From the NCBI RefSeq assembly GCF_002844535.1, contig NZ_PJNH01000003.1, forward strand, positions 62,001 to 126,000: a DNA stretch of 64,000 bases. Reading direction: 5' to 3'. The DNA comes from Halalkalibacillus sediminis (GTDB lineage Bacteria > Bacillota > Bacilli > Bacillales > Alkalibacillaceae). Below the pieces are notes generated by a model. The model was not told the origin of the DNA. It searched no databases and saw only the letters and a program-made list of their open reading frames with translations. Positions 6,935 through 63,494 of this stretch are shown here, in pieces (within the stretch, counting starts at the first letter, position 1; each line of letters opens with the position of its first letter). The translations under genes were made by a program, and so were the position numbers.

Positions 6935-6958
6935 ATTAGGTAAGAAAGGAGGTTGGGG

Positions 6959-7540
6959 ATGTCAGTGTTCGAACACGATAAAGACTATAGTCAAAAAATG
7001 ACCGAACAAGATAGATTACGAATCGTAGAAGAATGCATGAATGAATACGGGGACGAAATCAAACGTCTTGTTTTCACATACGTGAGCAATCATGCCGATG
7101 CAGATGACATTTCACAAGAAGTATTTCTTAAGGTTTATCAAAAGATAGACCAGTTCAAAGGTGAATCAGAGCTCAAAAGTTGGATTTATCGCATTGCTAT
7201 TAATAAGAGCAAGGATCACTTAAGAAGTTGGAAATACCGGCAACAAAAGTTAAAAGATAAGATGGAAAGAACGTTCAAGAAAGAATCAGCTGTAGAGCAT
7301 CAAACGCCTGAACATATTTCCATTGAAGATGAAGAGGCGAATACATTAATGGAACATGTATATGAATTACCGGTGAAGTATCGTGAAGTGATTATTCTTC
7401 ACTACTTTGAACAATTATCCACAAAAGAGATAGCTGAAGTATTAGAGACAAATTTGAATACTGTCAAAGCTAGATTGAAGCGCGGTAGAGAGCGTCTAAA
7501 GACATTCCTTGATGGAAACGGGGGTGAACAGTTTGGATAA
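6959..7540 (+). CDS. ECF-type RNA polymerase sigma factor
   Basis: 193 aa. Region 2 includes RLVFTYVSNHADADDISQE and SWIYRIAINKSKDHL (residues about 35-85); region 4 has LPVKYREVIILHYFEQLSTKEIAEVLETNLNTVKARLKRGR near 135-175. The ATG at 6959 is chosen because AAAGGAGG lies 6 nt upstream; a TTG two codons earlier is not needed. The downstream anti-sigma gene overlaps its last codons. An ECF promoter upstream suggests it transcribes its own operon. A paralogue lies at 48902-49471. The signal it responds to is unknown. Confidence 0.9.
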   Translation: MSVFEHDKDYSQKMTEQDRLRIVEECMNEYGDEIKRLVFTYVSNHADADDISQEVFLKVYQKIDQFKGESELKSWIYRIAINKSKDHLRSWKYRQQKLKDKMERTFKKESAVEHQTPEHISIEDEEANTLMEHVYELPVKYREVIILHYFEQLSTKEIAEVLETNLNTVKARLKRGRERLKTFLDGNGGEQFG

Positions 7541-8981
7541 AAAGTTAGAAAAAATGCGAAAAGCATATCAAAATAACGAGAATTTACGCTTTACTAAATC
7601 GGACAAAGAAGAAGTGTTTGATAAAATCGCACGTCACAATGAACCTCCTCAAAAAGCTCCCCTATTTCCTTGGAAAGTTGTTATGTCCATGTTAGCTGTA
7701 ATATTGATTGGCGCAGTCATCTTTGCCAGCGCTGACGGGGATTTCTTTAATACTGCCGAAGCCCCTACTACGGACGATGAACCTTCAAACGAGGAAGATC
7801 CATCTATTGAAGGTTATGTAATGGAGATGGACGAAGATCGAATATTGGTCGTTGAACCTGAGCTTTCTGATAATGATCAATACCAAGCTGTTTGGTACAG
7901 TGACGTACCGGATGGAATAGAAATGGGACAGTTTGTGTATGTATGGCATGAAGGTCAAGAAGAATCTTATCCAGCTCAAGCTTCTATTGATGAAATCGAA
8001 ATTCAAGAAAGCGAAACGGTCGATGAATCTAATTTGACCGAACAAGAAGCTTTGAATACAGCATTATCGTCTACTGATTTCGAAGATACTGAAGTTTTAG
8101 TGGTTGATTCAGTTTCATTTGATTCAGATTCAAGTATTTGGGAAATTTCTCTGAACGATAGCGAAGGCACATCAGTAAGCACCATTCAAGTTGACGATGA
8201 AAAAAATACGGTCGTTGAAGAGGAAGAAGAATCTTTCTTCGATTATGAACCGTATGGCAAACCTTTTACAAAACTTGAAATTGATGTAGTCGAGGCAATG
8301 CAAGATAGCGAGAACATCTTGAATCAACTTTCCGGAGATGCCACGTTGAATGCTGTTGCCATTGACGAAAAGGGCACAGTAACGATGGACTTCGAACCTT
8401 TTGAAGAATCTATAACGAGCGGGGAAAAAGGAGAACTGACTCAGACGATTGCTGAATTAGCATTTGCATACGACGAAAGCGAAGAAGTCTACGTTCAGTT
8501 CGAAGGTAGTAGCGAAGCATTCCGAGATTATATGGAAGCTGAAGCAGTTACTCCAATTACAAGGGATAACCTAGAATCCAATCAAGGACCACCTGAACCT
8601 GATTTAGAAGAAGTTCTGACCGAATATGAGGAAAAGGTTAATAATTTTCTTGAAGGCCAAGCTGACGATCAAAGAATCACAACGCACGACTCAATTGAAG
8701 AAATTCGAAACGATTTCATGACAGTCATGTCTAGAAGCCAAGCACAATATTTGATTGAGACCTACGTCCGGGAAGATAATGGACTATATCTAGTAGCAAC
8801 TGGCGGGCCAGTATTTATTAACCTAGAAGAGCCTTATAGTACAGAGCAAGTTTCTGAAAAGGAATATCAGGTTATCCAGGAAAAGGACGGACAAATGAGA
8901 AACGGAATATTCACATTTAACATTGTATACAATGGAGAGGCCTATGTCGTTGACTCAATAGAGCATGAGGAAACTCAATAA
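7533..8981 (+). CDS. Membrane-anchored anti-sigma factor with GerMN-like ectodomain
   Basis: 482 aa from a TTG at 7533, which is preceded at 7 nt by GGGGGTG and overlaps the end of the sigma gene by 8 nt. Residues 1-45 are cytoplasmic and basic, a single membrane segment spans about 47-66 (WKVVMSMLAVILIGAVIFAS), and the rest is an acidic outer domain. Residues about 240-345 (VVEAMQDSENILNQL..., MDFEPFEES) read like a GerMN-type domain. A cytoplasmic tail, one helix and gene overlap with a sigma factor are the basis for the anti-sigma call; there is no zinc-binding ZAS motif. Very acidic composition suits a salt-adapted cell. Confidence 0.75.
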   Translation: MDKKLEKMRKAYQNNENLRFTKSDKEEVFDKIARHNEPPQKAPLFPWKVVMSMLAVILIGAVIFASADGDFFNTAEAPTTDDEPSNEEDPSIEGYVMEMDEDRILVVEPELSDNDQYQAVWYSDVPDGIEMGQFVYVWHEGQEESYPAQASIDEIEIQESETVDESNLTEQEALNTALSSTDFEDTEVLVVDSVSFDSDSSIWEISLNDSEGTSVSTIQVDDEKNTVVEEEEESFFDYEPYGKPFTKLEIDVVEAMQDSENILNQLSGDATLNAVAIDEKGTVTMDFEPFEESITSGEKGELTQTIAELAFAYDESEEVYVQFEGSSEAFRDYMEAEAVTPITRDNLESNQGPPEPDLEEVLTEYEEKVNNFLEGQADDQRITTHDSIEEIRNDFMTVMSRSQAQYLIETYVREDNGLYLVATGGPVFINLEEPYSTEQVSEKEYQVIQEKDGQMRNGIFTFNIVYNGEAYVVDSIEHEETQ

Positions 8982-47421: not shown

Positions 47422-48909
47422 TTACTGATTATCTGGAAGGGTAATTTCAAAAGTTTCATCAACTTCTACGTCGTATGATAAATTTTCAATCGTAAAAAAC
47501 AAACGCTCAGCTTCACCGATAGATTCAGTAGGAATAGATAATACCAACCCTCCATCTCCTCTCCGGTCAATAGAGTAATCTTCACTTAAATTATCACCTT
47601 CCGAGTTTTGAATCCGAAGAATATTTCCAGTCACAGTTTCTTCGTTAAAAGGAAATTGATGAATAGACTGCAGTTGAAACTTTATATTTGGTTCGCTCTC
47701 ACCGCTTTCCGATAGGAATAGTAATCGAAGTTCATCATCCACGAAAGAACTTTCTTTAAGGTATATGTTATTCCCCTTAAACTGAGCTACATTAATTGAG
47801 GTTTTCACGTCGTTCCTATCAGTTAATTCTGAAATGGGTAGATTAAATTCCAATCGCTTATCCGTTATAGCTCCGATAGAAGTAATCTGAATAGGCATTT
47901 GATCACCCTTCATGATCTCATCTCTTAATGAGACGGTGAATTCCTCACCCCCGGATAATTGAGAGATGTTTTCACCAGTCTGGTCTCCGAACCTTGTATT
48001 TACACTCTTAACGTTTATTCCTTCTTCGCCCCTCAGTGAAAGATTGATCTTCTCAGAATCAAATCTTGTTTCTATACTTTCAACATCTAATTTAATTTCA
48101 CCCAAGTCCTCTTCTTCGAATGAAAATGTTTCCCCTACATCCATAGTCTCGTATTCATAATTAGAAGAATCGTATTTTAAAGGTAAATAAACATCATCAA
48201 TCAAAAGTCTTTCTCCGAAATAGTTAAGATAAAAATTAACGTTAAATTCATTATCGTATTGCTTGAGAGAATCACTACCTTCAGTTTTTAAAGGTTGCGT
48301 GCTATATACACCGTACATCCGATCCTCAAACAAAATCCCAGCCAGGTGGACCTCATTCATTCTGTGATGAGGAAAGTTGATATTCCCTACTTCTTCATTT
48401 TTATAAATATACAATTCAGATAAATGGAATCGGTAGTCAGATGTTTTTAATTCCTCTTCAGAAACAGGCAAACTATACATAAGGTGCATATGTTCATCTG
48501 TGACCCAGACTTCTTCTACTCTGAGATTGATCTCGGAATCAGGAACATTATACTGTTGGTTTACTTCCTTTACTAGACCTTTCTCCCTAGCTTCTGAAAG
48601 ACCGTGAAGGTGCTCTTCAAGAATTCGATCCATTTCTTCTTCACTTTCAGCTATTTCGATCTGATTTTTTAAATGCGGGTCAATCTCTAAATCAGTTTGC
48701 CCTTGTTCAGATAATGGTGGTATTCCCACATTTATGATAAGGATAAATACACTGAATACCAAAACGGCAGTAACAAATTGCGGAACTAGCCTACGCATGA
48801 ATCTCATACCTTTTTTCTTCTTGAAAAACCGGTTTTTATCGGATGAGGAGTCATAATACTGTTTTTCACCTAAAAAGTGGTCAAAGTCTTTCTTCGAGAG
48901 TTTATCCAT
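47422..48909 (-). CDS. Anti-sigma factor with large acidic ectodomain (DUF4179-like)
   Basis: 495 aa, overlapping the sigma gene by 8 nt. Residues 1-40 are cytoplasmic and basic (FFKKKKGMRFMRRL), one membrane helix spans about 43-62 (FVTAVLVFSVFILIINVGIP), and the outer part is acidic, with LRVEEVWVTDEHMHLMYSLP near residue 130 and beta-rich repeats towards the end. The arrangement is that of anti-sigma partners of ECF factors. It has a decayed paralogue upstream (49574-51180). The outer ligand is unknown. Confidence 0.78.
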   Translation of the reverse strand: MDKLSKKDFDHFLGEKQYYDSSSDKNRFFKKKKGMRFMRRLVPQFVTAVLVFSVFILIINVGIPPLSEQGQTDLEIDPHLKNQIEIAESEEEMDRILEEHLHGLSEAREKGLVKEVNQQYNVPDSEINLRVEEVWVTDEHMHLMYSLPVSEEELKTSDYRFHLSELYIYKNEEVGNINFPHHRMNEVHLAGILFEDRMYGVYSTQPLKTEGSDSLKQYDNEFNVNFYLNYFGERLLIDDVYLPLKYDSSNYEYETMDVGETFSFEEEDLGEIKLDVESIETRFDSEKINLSLRGEEGINVKSVNTRFGDQTGENISQLSGGEEFTVSLRDEIMKGDQMPIQITSIGAITDKRLEFNLPISELTDRNDVKTSINVAQFKGNNIYLKESSFVDDELRLLFLSESGESEPNIKFQLQSIHQFPFNEETVTGNILRIQNSEGDNLSEDYSIDRRGDGGLVLSIPTESIGEAERLFFTIENLSYDVEVDETFEITLPDNQ

Positions 48910-49471
48910 CTAAATAACCCTCCTTCAATTCATTTTTCAGTTTTGCTTTAGCCCTTGAAATCCTCGTTCTTACTGTCGAAGCATTCATTTCTAACAAATC
49001 GCTGATCTCTTCGATTTTCATTTCTTTGTAATACTGCAAAACCAATACTTCCCGATCCTTTAACGGCAAACTCAAAATAGATTCGATTAACTCCTCTTTT
49101 TTTTCCTCTAATAGAAGTCTGGATTCAGGTGTTTCCTCATCTTTTGAATCAAACCAGTTATTTTTCCAAAGAATTAGCCGATTAGCAGGTGATTTTAAAT
49201 AGTCTTTGCATTTGTTAACCGTAATTCTGAATAGCCATGTCTTAAAAGCAGAATCGCCTCTGAAGCTATCTAGTTTTTTATATACGATGATCATAATTTC
49301 CTGAAAAACGTCATCTGTTGTTGCCCGATTTTTTACATAAGTAAATATTAACCGCTTCAATTCTTCTCCATATTCATCCATTAACCAGCTGATCGCTTCG
49401 TCTCTGTTCATCTCATGAATGAAAGTAGAAGACTCTTCGTTTTGCTCCAAACTCTTCACCTCATCTTTCAC
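48902..49471 (-). CDS. ECF-type RNA polymerase sigma factor
   Basis: 189 aa. Region 2: LKRLIFTYVKNRATTDDVFQEIMIIVYKK and FKTWLFRITVNKCKDYL (about residues 38-90). Region 4: LPLKDREVLVLQYYKEMKIEEISDLLEMNASTVRTRISRAKAKL (about 135-180). It shares its plan with the sigma factor at 6959-7540. An ECF promoter (TGAGAC-N16-CGTCTA) is found 11 nt before the start region, so it is probably self-activating. The coupled anti-sigma gene follows. Confidence 0.9.
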   Translation of the reverse strand: MKDEVKSLEQNEESSTFIHEMNRDEAISWLMDEYGEELKRLIFTYVKNRATTDDVFQEIMIIVYKKLDSFRGDSAFKTWLFRITVNKCKDYLKSPANRLILWKNNWFDSKDEETPESRLLLEEKKEELIESILSLPLKDREVLVLQYYKEMKIEEISDLLEMNASTVRTRISRAKAKLKNELKEGYLDG

Positions 49472-49481
49472 TTCTACCTAT

Positions 49482-49509
49482 TAGACGCACATCCGTTCAA
49501 AATGTCTCA
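49482..49509 (-). promoter_or_regulatory. ECF-type promoter of the second sigma factor gene
   Basis: On the minus strand TGAGAC (-35) and CGTCTA (-10) are 16 bp apart, one base from the TGAAAC-N16-CGTCTA consensus of SigW/SigM-type factors. Confidence 0.65.
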
Positions 49510-49513
49510 AAAA

Positions 49514-49544
49514 AATAAAATCGGGCAACAATCACCCGATTTTT
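49514..49544 (-). terminator. Terminator after the fused sigma/anti-sigma relic
   Basis: AAATCGGG / CCCGATTT with a 9-nt loop and a T-rich tail on the minus strand; it separates the relic from the intact sigma operon. Confidence 0.8.
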
Positions 49545-49573
49545 ATCGTTTAAAATCATTTAATTTCAGCTTA

Positions 49574-50089
49574 CTACTTTCCTGAAAGATCTATATCAAC
49601 CGACTCCTCGATTTCAACTCCATAGATCAACCTCTCTAACTTAAAATAAACCGTCTCTGAATTGTTCAGGAAATAGCTTTCAACCAAATATCCAGACTCA
49701 CCGTTTTCTTCTATATACATGCCATGATCAACAGAACTGAAGCTATTTTCATCATTAGCTATAGACACCTTATTACCTTGTTGACCCTGGATTCCCGAAT
49801 GGTCGCGCCTACCTATAAAGTATTCATCTGAATTTTCCTCATTCAATTGGTTGAGGACAATAAACCAATCATCCCTACGTTGTTTTAATCCTTTAAAGTA
49901 GATTTCTGACCCTTTAAATTCTTTAACCTTTTGATCATACTGAAAGGACTTTTCTTCAGTATCATTGAAGTCAACGTCAACTGGTTCAAAATCGAAGGTT
50001 AATTCTTTGTCAGAAATAAAATCCACTTCAGTAAAATGAATCGTCAAGTCTTCTGGAACCTCAGGGAGACTTCCAAAACCCACTCTCAT
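49574..50089 (-). pseudogene. Detached ectodomain piece of a degenerate anti-sigma factor
   Basis: 171 aa, no signal peptide or membrane helix. DFISDKELTFDFEPVDVD and VKEFKGSEIYFKGLKQRRDD align with AITDKRLEFNLPISEL and VAQFKGNNIYLKESSF of the intact anti-sigma (47422-48909), and GVEIEESVDIDL with DVEVDETFEITL at its end. It overlaps the fused gene by 4 nt (ATGA). Without export signals, a free protein could not reach the cell surface, so this is best read as the cut-off 3' part of a larger gene. It remains open for 516 nt. Confidence 0.65.
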
Positions 50090-51180
50090 TTCATTGTCAT
50101 TGTTCCCTTGGTGATCAATCCAGGTTCATTTCTATGGTACATTCCCATATATTTCATACTTTCGTTTCCAACATTTTCATTTTTATAAATATACAACTCA
50201 TCTAGCACCAAATTATAAGTTGGTTTTTGTAAATCAGCTTCACTGACGGGTAAACTATATATTAGATGCATTCCTTCCCCTGAATTGTACATTTTTTCAA
50301 ACTTCAGTTCTCCATCTCTCTCAGGCAATTTCACAGATGTTTCCATATCCTTTACAAGTCCATCACTCTTAGCTCGTTCCCAACCAGGAACATTCCTCGT
50401 GACCATACGCATTAATTCTTCTTCGTTTTCAGGAAATTGCAATGTTCTCTCTAGCTGCTCGTTAATGTCCAGATCAGCACTAATAGCCTTGTTCGCTTCC
50501 TGATATTGAACGAAAAGAATGATACAAGCAATGCTCAAGAACATAACAAACTGCACTTTGATATTCCTCGGAACGTGAAACTTGTTTTTGTTAGCACTTC
50601 CATTTGATTCTGCGGTAATTTTATGTAATCTCTTTGATCCGATATAGAAATCGATATCCTTTGAAGAAATACCACTCTCATCAACTCGAGCATTTAATTT
50701 ATCCTCAACTTTTACCCACCTCGAGTTTAATTCAGACGCAGAAATATTTAGTATTTGATAGATATCGTCAGGGTGAAAACCGCAATAGATATGCAGGATG
50801 ACGACTTCCCGTAACTTCACGGGTAACTCCATGATTAAATCAATTAAAGTCGACTTTTCACTAGACAAACTCTGTTGAGTTTCAGGAATGAAACCCTTAT
50901 TAAGATGAACCCAGTGATCCACTGCCCATAACCCTCTAGTAAAAGGTAATCGCAAATACCTCTTGCTTTTTTTAGCGGCCGCTTCAAATAACATTATTTC
51001 TATCTCTGAATCTTGATCAGAAGACTTAATCTTTCTCTTCGATGAATGAATGACAGATTTAAAAATCTCGTCAGTTGTTTTATAGTTTTTCACGTATGTA
51101 AAAATGAACCGTTTTAACTCTTCTCCCTTATTTTCTAATAAATTTGTTAACCGTTCGTGTTTCCAGCCTTTTCCGCCCAC
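50086..51180 (-). pseudogene. Degenerate sigma/anti-sigma fusion, paralogue of the neighbouring pair
   Basis: 364 aa from a GTG at 51180 (GGTGGTG upstream). Residues 1-165 look like an ECF sigma: GEELKRFIFTYVKNYKTTDE and MELPVKLREVVILHIYCGF are kept, but the region 2 segment matching TWLFRITVNKCKDYL is badly diverged (IMLFEAAAKKSKRYL). They run without a stop into an anti-sigma part: DIDFYIGSKRLHK, a helix VQFVMFLSIACIILFVQY near 210, then GMHLIYSLPVSEADLQKP and LDELYIYKNENVGN, matching MHLMYSLPVSEEELK and LSELYIYKNEEVGN of the intact protein. About 150 residues of the ectodomain are missing before the piece at 49574. I take it for a decaying duplicate; a self-contained regulator is possible because both frames stay open. 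Confidence 0.65.
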
Positions 51181-51213
51181 ATTTTTTCACCACCGTTTTA
51201 TTGGTATAACATA

Positions 51214-51246
51214 AAAAAATTCCTTGTATCTTTACAAGGAATTTTA
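51214..51246 (-). terminator. Terminator of the epimerase gene
   Basis: AAATTCCTTGTA / TACAAGGAATTT, perfect 12-bp stem, 4-nt loop, T run on the minus strand. Confidence 0.85.
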
Positions 51247-51260
51247 ACATAAATCAACTA

Positions 51261-52271
51261 TTACTGGTGAATTTTCTCAGCAACTTTATCTTCTATTTCG
51301 TAGCCAAAGACTTCCGAGAAATCTCCTTCAGGAGGATTTTCAAGTTCCCACTTGACTGTTCGGTTCAATCCTTCTTCCAATGAGACTTCCTCAGTGAAAC
51401 CTGTAATATCACGGAACTTTGATGTATCTAAGTGTAATTCCTGGTCCGTGTTAATACCGAGATCATCAACTAATTCTCCAGCCGGAGCGACGATAATTTC
51501 TCCAGACCAATCCAACACTTTCTTCAAATGTTTTACCCATTCAAGTTCGGTAATAGGTGTTGGTTCCCCTAAATTGAATATCTCACCGATTGTTTCTTCG
51601 TTTTCAATGGCTTCTACAATAGCTTGAGCAATATTTTCAGAATAACCTTTTGAAAAAAGAGCATTCGCCATCCGATCATCCATAACAAGGTGTGGTCGCC
51701 CATCGTTCATCTTATGAATATAGTTCATAAACCTTCGATTAGGGTCTTTGGCTCCGTATACCATCGGCAACCTTAATACGGTTCCCTTGAAATTTTTACT
51801 GTTCAAGATCTTTTGCTCGATTGGGATCTTGTCATATTTTCGGGCGAATTCAGTATCCAATTTGTCTTTGAAAGGATAAAGTCGTGTTCTCAATTCATCA
51901 TTTTCTCTAATTGGCGATGGCTGCACAGGGTCATCCGTTACCTGATTCAAAACTTCAAACGCACGATAAACATCGGCACTGCTTATGACAACAAGTCTTT
52001 CAACGATGCCTTCAAGTGCTTGCTCCAACTGATCGACATTTCGTTCAAACATGCAGACCATATCAACAACCACATCCGGTTCAAAATCTTTTGCTTCATC
52101 TTTAAGCTTCACGATGTCTTCCCTGTCACCTAAAACTTCTTTCACACCTTCAATTTCAGGTGCTGGATTACTACCGCGATGATAGACCATGACCTCGTGC
52201 CCTTTATCAATCAGTTGCTTTACAACATGTGGTCCCATAAAATTTGTACCACCAATAATGAATACTCTCAT
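51261..52271 (-). CDS. NAD-dependent epimerase/dehydratase family protein
   Basis: 336 aa from the ATG at 52271 (GTGGAG 6 nt upstream). The N-terminal Rossmann motif is VFIIGGTNFMGPHVVKQL (GGxxFxG), followed by DMVCMF and VVISSADVYRAF. The expected catalytic YxxxK of extended SDR enzymes is not obvious: the region after SSADVYR has KYDKIPIEQK near residue 145, which could supply Tyr and Lys. It is of the type often annotated as SDR-like nucleoside-sugar epimerases or RNA-binding homologues. Substrate unknown. Confidence 0.82.
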   Translation of the reverse strand: MRVFIIGGTNFMGPHVVKQLIDKGHEVMVYHRGSNPAPEIEGVKEVLGDREDIVKLKDEAKDFEPDVVVDMVCMFERNVDQLEQALEGIVERLVVISSADVYRAFEVLNQVTDDPVQPSPIRENDELRTRLYPFKDKLDTEFARKYDKIPIEQKILNSKNFKGTVLRLPMVYGAKDPNRRFMNYIHKMNDGRPHLVMDDRMANALFSKGYSENIAQAIVEAIENEETIGEIFNLGEPTPITELEWVKHLKKVLDWSGEIIVAPAGELVDDLGINTDQELHLDTSKFRDITGFTEEVSLEEGLNRTVKWELENPPEGDFSEVFGYEIEDKVAEKIHQ

Positions 52272-52403
52272 AACTAACTCCACTCCCTATCCTAATATGG
52301 AATGAACGCTCAACTATAAAATATATGCCGACTTTGAAAGTTTCATGATACTTGCCGTATATATTGATTCTACAAATTTATAGGAATACCTTTATTTGAG
52401 ATA

Positions 52404-53099: not shown

Positions 53100-53212
53100 T
53101 TTAATCAGCTCCTATAATTCGACATTTCCCGGGAAATAACGTTTTTTCTCTACAACTTACATTTATCCCGATTTTACCATATATGAGGAATATTCCTTTA
53201 CTAATTAAATGT

Positions 53213-53243
53213 CATACTGTATATTAAGTATGCACTGTATACA
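53213..53243. promoter_or_regulatory. Operator-like inverted repeats upstream of the AbrB-Doc module
   Basis: CATAC-N10-GTATG (53213-53232) and the palindrome TGTATACA (53236-53243), just upstream of the antitoxin ribosome site; likely sites for autoregulation by the antitoxin. Confidence 0.45.
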
Positions 53244-53271
53244 CGTATTTATAAAAAAAGGAGGGGATGAC

Positions 53272-53517
53272 ATGATTAGGCGAAAGGTGATCCAATCAGG
53301 CAATAGTTTAAGCTTGAACATGACTGAAGTCCTCAAGAAAATAGATGCTAAGAAAGGAGATACCATGGTGATTGAAGTAAATGAAAATAATGAAATAGTT
53401 ATTAAAAAGCAAGCAGAATATGAATTACCCAAAAACGTCAGTAATGATTTCTTTAAAGTTTTAGAAAGAAATTTAAATGATTATGACAAAACAATCAAAG
53501 GATTGATCGATAGGTAA
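53272..53517 (+). CDS. AbrB/MazE-type antitoxin
   Basis: 81 aa from the ATG at 53272, preceded by AAAGGAGGGG; an upstream in-frame ATG at 53209 has no ribosome site. MIRRKVIQSGNSLSLNM and a hydrophobic beta strand (DTMVIEVNENNEIVIKK) make the AbrB swapped-hairpin DNA-binding fold; the acidic C-terminal region (residues 50-81) should wrap the toxin. Its stop codon overlaps the doc start by 1 nt. The AT-rich codon use differs from neighbours, suggesting acquisition. Confidence 0.85.
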   Translation: MIRRKVIQSGNSLSLNMTEVLKKIDAKKGDTMVIEVNENNEIVIKKQAEYELPKNVSNDFFKVLERNLNDYDKTIKGLIDR

Positions 53518-53906
53518 TGAAAAATATTCGATATCTAACAGAAGAAGAAGTTATAACCCTAAACGTCTATTTAATTGAAATATATAGCTCAGAAGAGATT
53601 TCTGGGGTAAAAGACGCTTCGTTATTACAATCTGCTGTGAATAGGCCATTACAATCAGCTTTTGGAGAAGACGCATATCCAACAATAGAAGAAAAAGCAG
53701 CTGCTTTGTTTGAGTCACTAGCTAAAAATCATCCTTTTCATAACGCAAATAAACGTACAGCCTTTATGGCAATGCTTCAATTTTTAAGTTACAACAACAG
53801 AGACTTCAATATGGAACAAAAGAAGGCTGAAGATTTTGTAGTAGACGTAGTTACACATAAAGTAACTTTCGAGGAAATCATAAATATCATAAAAGCTCAT
53901 CAATAA
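53517..53906 (+). CDS. doc: Doc-type (Fic fold) death-on-curing toxin
   Basis: 129 aa. The Fic motif HPFHNANKRTAF near residues 73-84 fits HxFx(D/N)(A/G)NKR of Doc, which phosphorylates elongation factor Tu. RYLTEEEVITLN at the start and VKDASLLQSAVNRPLQSAFG near 31 complete the Doc fold. Encoded directly after the antitoxin gene. The family usually pairs with Phd; here the partner is AbrB-like. Confidence 0.9.
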   Translation: MKNIRYLTEEEVITLNVYLIEIYSSEEISGVKDASLLQSAVNRPLQSAFGEDAYPTIEEKAAALFESLAKNHPFHNANKRTAFMAMLQFLSYNNRDFNMEQKKAEDFVVDVVTHKVTFEEIINIIKAHQ

Positions 53907-63289: not shown

Positions 63290-63370
63290 AAAAATTACCT
63301 CTCTAACTGTTTACAAATTTCCAAATGTTGATTATTCTAAGATTATAACAAACTGCATATTCGAACAAAC

Positions 63371-63457
63371 ACTAGGGGAGCTACATTTTGTGGCTGAGAA
63401 GGCATTGCCTGACCCTTTGAACCCGATCTGGATAATACTAGCGTGGGGAAGTGTAGT
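63371..63457 (+). ncRNA. TPP riboswitch (THI element)
   Basis: ACTAGGGGAGC, TGGCTGAGAAGG, CTGACCCTTTGAACCCGATC, TGGATAATACTAGCGTGGGGA and GTGTAGT are the conserved segments of the thiamine-pyrophosphate aptamer. A terminator follows 38 nt later, and the first gene downstream is ykoF. TPP should cause early termination. Confidence 0.95.
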
Positions 63458-63494
63458 AGACTGTATGATTAATAAAATTGAAACCATACATGTA

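Follow-up and report, generated by a model that had tools for sequence, protein, structure and literature searches.

Fusions that place an ECF σ-factor and its regulator in one chain have been described. IutY of Pseudomonas putida (ECF243) combines a cytosolic σ domain, a transmembrane segment, and a periplasmic anti-σ domain in a single polypeptide, and it is active and released by Prc and RseP (PMC5411451). Likewise, the groups ECF48, ECF52, and ECF53 have been described from Actinobacteria with a zinc-finger domain, and ECF36 with N-terminal membrane helices and DUF2275 (PMC8999054). Because working σ/anti-σ fusions are known from these accounts, the architecture described here is not in itself new. 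The closest systems in the Bacillales are PRK09415-like (sigma C) pairs, in which, in 32 cases and in the intact neighbor of our locus, the gene after the σ gene overlaps or adjoins it and encodes a membrane protein with one helix.

Here we analyze a locus of Halalkalibacillus sediminis that lies in a window of 64,000 nucleotides, by which we mean the whole stretch of DNA analyzed. One of its frames, f1, encodes a diverged ECF σ-factor, then a single membrane helix and the first portion of an anti-σ ectodomain. It shares with IutY a σ part, one membrane helix, and an outer domain in one chain, and with ECF48, ECF52, ECF53, and ECF36 a σ part joined to membrane segments that replace an anti-σ factor. 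In contrast to IutY, f1 has lost σ-marking residues and its outer domain is truncated and matches no Pfam family; in contrast to the ECF groups, which are classified, the fusion is seen in one genome. It also differs from the PRK09415-like pairs, as it has no promoter match, no pre-membrane motif, and no stop/start overlap. We read the locus as a tandem duplicate of an ECF σ/membrane anti-σ pair in late decay, with a probability of roughly 0.77.

Layout and promoters of the locus

The genome assembly (2.86 Mb, 11 contigs, 99% complete) places the locus on a 533-kb contig. The features are as follows.

51216-51245, minus strand: terminator-like hairpin between the upstream epimerase-like gene and the fusion
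51180-50086, minus strand: f1, GTG start, 364 aa, a single frame by ORF reading
50665-51180, minus strand: σ part of the fusion, f1 residues 1-172, an ECF σ-factor in outline
50656-50700, minus strand: fusion point KLNARVDESGISSKD, 39 nt compared with 52 nt in four intact pairs
50086-50664, minus strand: anti-σ part of the fusion, comprising the pre-membrane segment, the helix, and most of the first ectodomain module
50497-50565, minus strand: single transmembrane helix of the fusion, f1 residues about 206-228, hydropathy 2.16
50146-50292, minus strand: stretch where the fusion is best preserved (f1 residues 297-345), with 50-65% identity to the intact anti-σ factor per 20-codon window
50104-50115 (approximate), minus strand: internal deletion junction, about 125 codons gone and the frame changed, placed by eye on the alignment
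49574-50089, minus strand: f2, 171 aa, the ectodomain end in another frame than f1, its ATG an internal codon of the old ectodomain
49517-49543, minus strand: terminator-like hairpin downstream of f2, ahead of the intact pair's promoter
49484-49509, minus strand: putative autoregulatory ECF promoter of the intact pair, TGAGAC-N16-CGTC
48902-49471, minus strand: intact paralogous ECF σ-factor, 189 aa, Sigma70_r2 and Sigma70_r4_2 both above cut-off
47422-48909, minus strand: intact paralogous anti-σ factor, 495 aa, DKNRF before one membrane helix, large ectodomain

The two frames and coordinates given for the fused copy in an earlier note on this DNA agree with the ORF reading, and the neighboring pair that it described is indeed intact (49471-48902 and 48909-47422). 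This pair spans 49471-47422, downstream of f1 and f2 on the minus strand. The longest stop-free run among single-base shuffles of 1.7 kb (n = 2000, one strand) was 130 codons, so the f1 and f2 frames are not there by chance. Upstream of f1 is the epimerase-like gene, and the window also holds a racemase-like gene; these names, like that of the phosphatase-like gene below, were assigned by eye, without a family search. By eye, a purine-rich stretch resembling a ribosome site precedes the GTG of f1.

The promoter of the intact pair has counterparts in other genomes. TGGGAC-N16-CGTC precedes the σ genes in G145, G261, and G100, in G261 ahead of an ATG that lies 63 nt within the longest frame, and TGRGAC-N16-CGTC, a refined pattern set after the sites had been viewed, is common to 4/4 intact pairs of the type checked. 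On a generic ECF promoter score (TGAAAC/CGTC, 10 positions) the site of the intact pair reaches 9, as did 41/3000 random stretches, and the three other sites reach 8 (534/3000). The best generic score within the 170 nt before the fusion is 7/10, the commonest value in 3000 random stretches. The corresponding place ahead of a decayed pair in Filobacillus milosensis, described below, reads TGGGAC-N16-CGCC and scores 7. Genome-wide, a stricter pattern hits one site, the intact pair's own, and because a reversed control pattern equally hits one, no regulon targets are claimed. Matches with one mismatch occur in the window at chance level (4 vs. 3.76 expected). The only σ70-like match on the minus strand in 49400-52400 is at 51991-51963, in the upstream gene and ahead of the hairpin at its end.

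The window contains a third ECF σ/anti-σ pair of overlapping genes at 6953-8981 on the plus strand. It belongs to another branch, and its promoter match is TGCAAC-N17-CGTC.

Junctions and the two halves of the fusion

In the intact pairs viewed (4/4) the σ and anti-σ genes, read in different frames, share 8 nt, and 52 nt separate two fixed codons. As the fusion point has 39 nt, fusing the genes took a net change of 13 nt that also altered the frame, and loss of the σ stop codon, the route that had been proposed, would by itself be insufficient.

An alignment of 15 full homologues with the fragments reveals both the internal deletion and the frame break that the earlier note had suspected, with a different deletion size: the missing piece measures 122-132 residues on six homologues (125 on the neighbor), not about 150. 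Homology in f1 ends at about PGLI, and the last f1 residues are f2-frame DNA read in another frame. Homology in f2 starts ahead of its ATG (NNDNE before it, MRV... from it onward). The ATG is therefore an internal ectodomain codon, and the ATGA shared by f1 and f2 is a by-product of the break. Thus f2 does encode the missing end of the ectodomain, as claimed, but it is not a second, coupled gene with a start of its own. It contains no hydrophobic, membrane, or export segment. Programmed frameshifting at the ATGA was rejected, since no usual slippery heptamer was found at the junction by eye and the ATG is an internal codon. Coupled reinitiation there appears unlikely, as f2 lacks a hydrophobic segment. 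Compared with its paralogue, the fused copy thus carries several disabling lesions, namely the frame break, the deletion, the lost stop and start, and the lost promoter match, and the intact paralogue lies alongside.

A single wrong base would suffice to create the f1/f2 break, and one assembly is the source of the sequence, so that the true gene could be a long fusion with an in-frame deletion. We regard such an error as very improbable: the contig is 533 kb long in an assembly of 11 contigs and 99% completeness, single-base runs do not exceed 4 within 91 bases around the junction, and the deletion and the fusion would persist anyway.

The σ part of f1 retains the outline of its family. The ECF σ model PRK09415 matches f1 residues 7-168 at E 5e-15, short of the model's cut-off, residues 112-153 match Pfam Sigma70_r4_2 at 19.9 bits against a cut-off of 25.7, and the helix GEELKRFIFTYVKN is retained. 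In Pfam, f1 has no match to σ region 2, part of which (2.1/2.2) binds the β′ clamp of RNA polymerase (PMC7406223). The intact neighbor has regions 2 and 4 above the Pfam gathering scores, whereas f1 has neither. At columns at least 94% invariant in other ECF σ-factors, f1 differs at 9/18, the worst of 36 other ECF proteins at 5/19. Its losses include, in intact-σ numbering, D54E, Q57K, Y64K, W79M, I83A, N86K, D90R, and R173K. Over the most conserved quarter of columns its match to the consensus is 0.57, which is not much lower than the 0.64 of two outlying ECF proteins; the mean is 0.86. In the σ tree its end branch is 5.23 changes per column (next longest 3.51, median 0.33), and its placement is unsure; grouping with the neighboring σ-factor is not rejected (p 0.23). 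A sequence search of solved structures with f1 gave nothing better than E 0.33, and the intact σ-factor matched E. coli σE and others. If made, f1 would be a membrane-anchored σ-like domain with a truncated sensor, probably dead in transcription.

The order of parts in f1 is identical to that in IutY, and such fusions exist (PMC8999054 and PMC5411451). An IutY-like protein whose σ domain is freed by regulated proteolysis is nevertheless extremely improbable, as σ region 2 is unmatched in Pfam and near-invariant residues are replaced, the ectodomain is truncated, and f1 shows no family other than σ factors in Pfam and NCBIfam at E values up to 1.

In the anti-σ half, residues 156-351 of f1 match the neighboring anti-σ factor at 33% identity (E 1.3e-27), and f2 matches its residues 336-491 at 27% (E 6.5e-5). 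The intact anti-σ factor itself belongs to no Pfam family in a Pfam search. For the wider class, 35 ECF genes led to 32 distinct proteins encoded directly after them, and hydropathy places a membrane helix in all 32. Ahead of the helix, 28/32 carry the motif [DE][KRD]xx[FIVL], our own definition set after viewing the sequences; in 500 shuffles of the segments the mean count was 10.3 and the largest 17 of 32. The motif is DKNRF in the intact neighbor, and we infer that it contacts the σ-factor. The fusion keeps the single helix but its pre-membrane segment lacks the motif, as do 76% of shuffles of that same segment. Nor is the ectodomain of about 430 residues complete, with about 125 residues missing and the frame changed.

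Structure predictions had a mean pLDDT of 46.9 for f1 and 56.0 for the intact anti-σ factor; built on alignments of 5 and 4 rows, the models are too poor for use beyond secondary structure. A Foldseek search of the anti-σ model against the PDB returned mostly Ig-like and sugar-binding chains with query TM-scores of 0.07-0.17 among the 50 rows listed, and was not used.

Age, past selection, and ancestry of the fused copy

Comparison of the fusion with the intact pair gives amino acid identities of 32% in the σ part (172 residues), 34% in the membrane part with the first module (181), and 25% in f2 (165). Where the residues are the same, the codons are identical at 23/54, 27/60, and 18/41 positions, respectively, and 40-44% is expected from codon use. 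Codon identity is thus at chance level and synonymous sites are near saturation; judged by its sequence, the fused copy is an old tandem paralogue. That 25-34% of residues and the open frames are retained despite such saturation argues that the copy was long under selection, if relaxed.

The absence of stop codons points the same way. In the aligned σ part, f1 has no stop and no gap despite its divergence. When neutral decay of this part was simulated down to 63% of the starting identity, about 4-5 stops were expected and 0.25-1% of runs (400 per setting) were stop-free; the observed number is 0. A one-branch neutral simulation overstated selection, because it allows change in one copy only, and was set aside. 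In a two-branch simulation of the membrane part, neutral evolution to a codon identity of 0.47-0.50 gave an amino acid identity of 0.19-0.26 and about nine stops, compared with an observed codon identity of 0.44 (68/155, three parts), amino acid identity of 0.25-0.34, and no stops. An ω of about 0.3-0.5 is the best fit in this crude simulation. Taken alone, the identity of f2 (0.25) is barely above neutral, and the missing stops weigh more. Collectively, these values indicate relaxed selection on the fused copy for much of the time since the duplication. The absent stops imply either that decay came late or that the frame was kept open for the membrane part, which is translated after the σ part. 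The view that open frames argue against plain decay was hence half right: the stops expected under it are absent, but late decay fits as well.

Two further observations bear on how long the copy was used. The end branch of f2 is 1.90, compared with 2.17 for the same region of the intact anti-σ factor, so f2 has not evolved faster. In the best-kept stretch, f1 297-345, windows have identical codons at 4-8 of 10-13 positions; recent gene conversion of this stretch found no support, as codon identity in the part that contains it is 27/60, against 0.43 expected by chance. Together, the open and gapless σ part, the rate of f2, this stretch, and the ribosome-site-like sequence weigh against the decay reading, in that they call for a copy whose product was made and of use up to a fairly late date.

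These same traits bear on whether f1 is alive today. The earlier note had raised a tethered decoy, which is possible but gained no positive support: the σ-marking residues, the motif, and the promoter are gone, and f2 lacks a start and a membrane or export segment. In its fuller form, f1 would be a living protein, with a tethered, transcriptionally dead σ domain and most of the first sensor module, that acts as a decoy for the signal or the anti-σ factor of the intact pair. The open, gapless σ part, an identity and lack of stops that fit past selection (ω about 0.3-0.5 in the crude two-branch simulation), the kept sensor stretch 297-345, and the intact helix GEELKRFIFTYVKN are all compatible with it. 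We nonetheless consider it unlikely, because no pair-type promoter is present in the 170 nt ahead of f1, hairpins flank the copy and the sole σ70-like match sits before the upstream one, the σ residues and the pre-membrane motif are lost, the sensor module is shortened, and no second genome with the fusion is found among the matches listed. A domesticated fused gene, whose dead σ domain would have been retained after the fusion as a mimic anchored in the membrane and would sequester the intact pair's signal or partner, is quite improbable; if true, the duplicated copy would have become a built-in damper. We favor late decay, in which f1 would have no present function.

Trees were used to ask where the two anti-σ pieces came from. 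The 5′ anti-σ part groups with the intact anti-σ factor at 100/99, and f2 does so weakly (94/74), in a join of two long branches. The alternative is a chimera formed by unequal recombination, with the 5′ part from the ancestor of the intact pair and f2 from a stand-alone homologue at the site seen in two related genomes, F. milosensis (G010) and G021 (below). A tree that places f2 with the gene of G010 and G021 cannot be rejected (p 0.44), whereas the like grouping of the 5′ part is rejected (p 0.005). In the 5′ part, identity to its own anti-σ factor is in excess by 18 points (95% interval 12-25), and in f2 by 1.6 (-4.7 to 8). A C-terminal ESVxxDLSG is common to f2 and the G010 protein, and in a tree without G021 the support for f2 with its own anti-σ factor is 65/0. 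However, with G021 added f2 joins its own anti-σ factor at the 94/74 given above, and the σ part shows an excess as small as that of f2 (0.7 points), so uneven rates suffice and no chimera is needed. A chimeric origin thus appears fairly unlikely, and on these alignments and trees duplication of the whole pair is enough as a history.

The events may be pictured as follows. An ancient duplication of the pair would have been followed by selection that maintained both copies, with a looser hold on the upstream one. The upstream copy would have lost the pair-type promoter, many σ-marking residues, and the pre-membrane motif of its anti-σ factor. A net 13-nt frame-changing event at the stop/start overlap would have fused the two genes, and a deletion of about 125 codons would have broken the ectodomain and the frame, so that f2 has neither a start nor an export segment. 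This order is a reconstruction, and the losses of promoter, residues, and motif may precede or follow the fusion. The intact pair presumably carries the function, its σ-factor driving its own operon from TGAGAC-N16-CGTC and, by analogy, being held by the membrane anti-σ factor until an outside signal frees it. The decay by fusion, deletion, and frame break that had been proposed for the upstream copy is in this way supported, with the deletion size and the fusion route corrected.

Relatives in the host's family and beyond

The genus is represented in the searched genome set by the host genome alone. Among the matches listed, no other σ/anti-σ fusion was found in 22 genomes of the family, 397 at the order level, and 398 at the class level, sets that overlap and that were each searched with an E-value cut-off. 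One apparent case, a fused σ-factor in G066 (276-aa open frame), proved to be a separate σ and anti-σ factor with an 8-nt overlap. A scan of the genomes' contigs with f1 gave no relative, and one with an alignment of the epimerase gave 8 loci, one of them the syntenic contig of F. milosensis.

F. milosensis is syntenic with the window through the epimerase-like (57% identical) and racemase-like genes, followed by a phosphatase-like gene. At the place of the fusion it has a stand-alone anti-like protein of 464 residues, open and without a σ part, and then a scar in which σ residues 8-53 (52% identical to the intact σ-factor) and anti-σ residues 417-493 survive with two stops between them. The scar resembles the fusion in being a syntenic pair of the same kind with a large internal deletion. 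Unlike the window, F. milosensis has lost the counterpart of the intact pair, and its upstream anti-like gene has an open frame without a σ part. In a second genome of the family (G021), a racemase-like gene and a broken phosphatase-like gene accompany a frameshift-split relative of the 464-residue gene, which joins that gene at 99/97 in the 5′ tree; the 15 kb read there contains no σ gene. A third (G019) has another frameshift-split anti-like gene, in a place without these neighbors and with no σ gene alongside. The decayed loci are as follows.

L087:4714-5121, minus strand: F. milosensis scar, same contig as NZ_SOPW01000007.1, with a decayed-looking promoter copy ahead
L109:6320-7757 and L110:5498-6944: frameshifted anti-like genes without σ genes, from the same family, split close to where the first ectodomain module meets the second

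In the family (22 genomes), 4/6 copies seen of this anti-σ type are broken, compared with 0/19 outside it, where all 19 matched rows are open and 453-539 residues long. This contrast is biased and suggestive only, because the search cut-offs differed (E 0.001 in the family, 1e-6 in the order), a split gene earns a low score, and the scar came from a targeted inspection. With that bias, the counts suggest that breakage of this anti-σ type recurs in the host's family. The locus shows a duplicated σ/anti-σ pair coming apart, with promoter, residues, motif, and frame lost and the old reading frame still open. Since the stages at this one place differ among three genera of the family, the locus could help to time the loss of regulators. 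A further lesson is that neither an ATGA-coupled second frame nor a σ/anti-σ fusion need be more than a leftover.

Stand-alone membrane proteins with such ectodomains, with no directly adjoining σ gene, were seen at eight loci (L088-L095; for example, L088:4474-7215 and L089:4977-7925). At L094 a σ gene lies about 2 kb from the stand-alone anti-like gene, and in G097 and G227 stand-alone anti-like membrane proteins occur as tandem pairs. Elsewhere in the window, a TPP riboswitch is found at 63364-63466 on the plus strand (87.8 bits), and two coupled small genes at 53209-53906 on the plus strand resemble by eye an AbrB-type antitoxin and a Fic/Doc toxin. A similar pair is present in G021 at L109:2622-3269, near the syntenic place.
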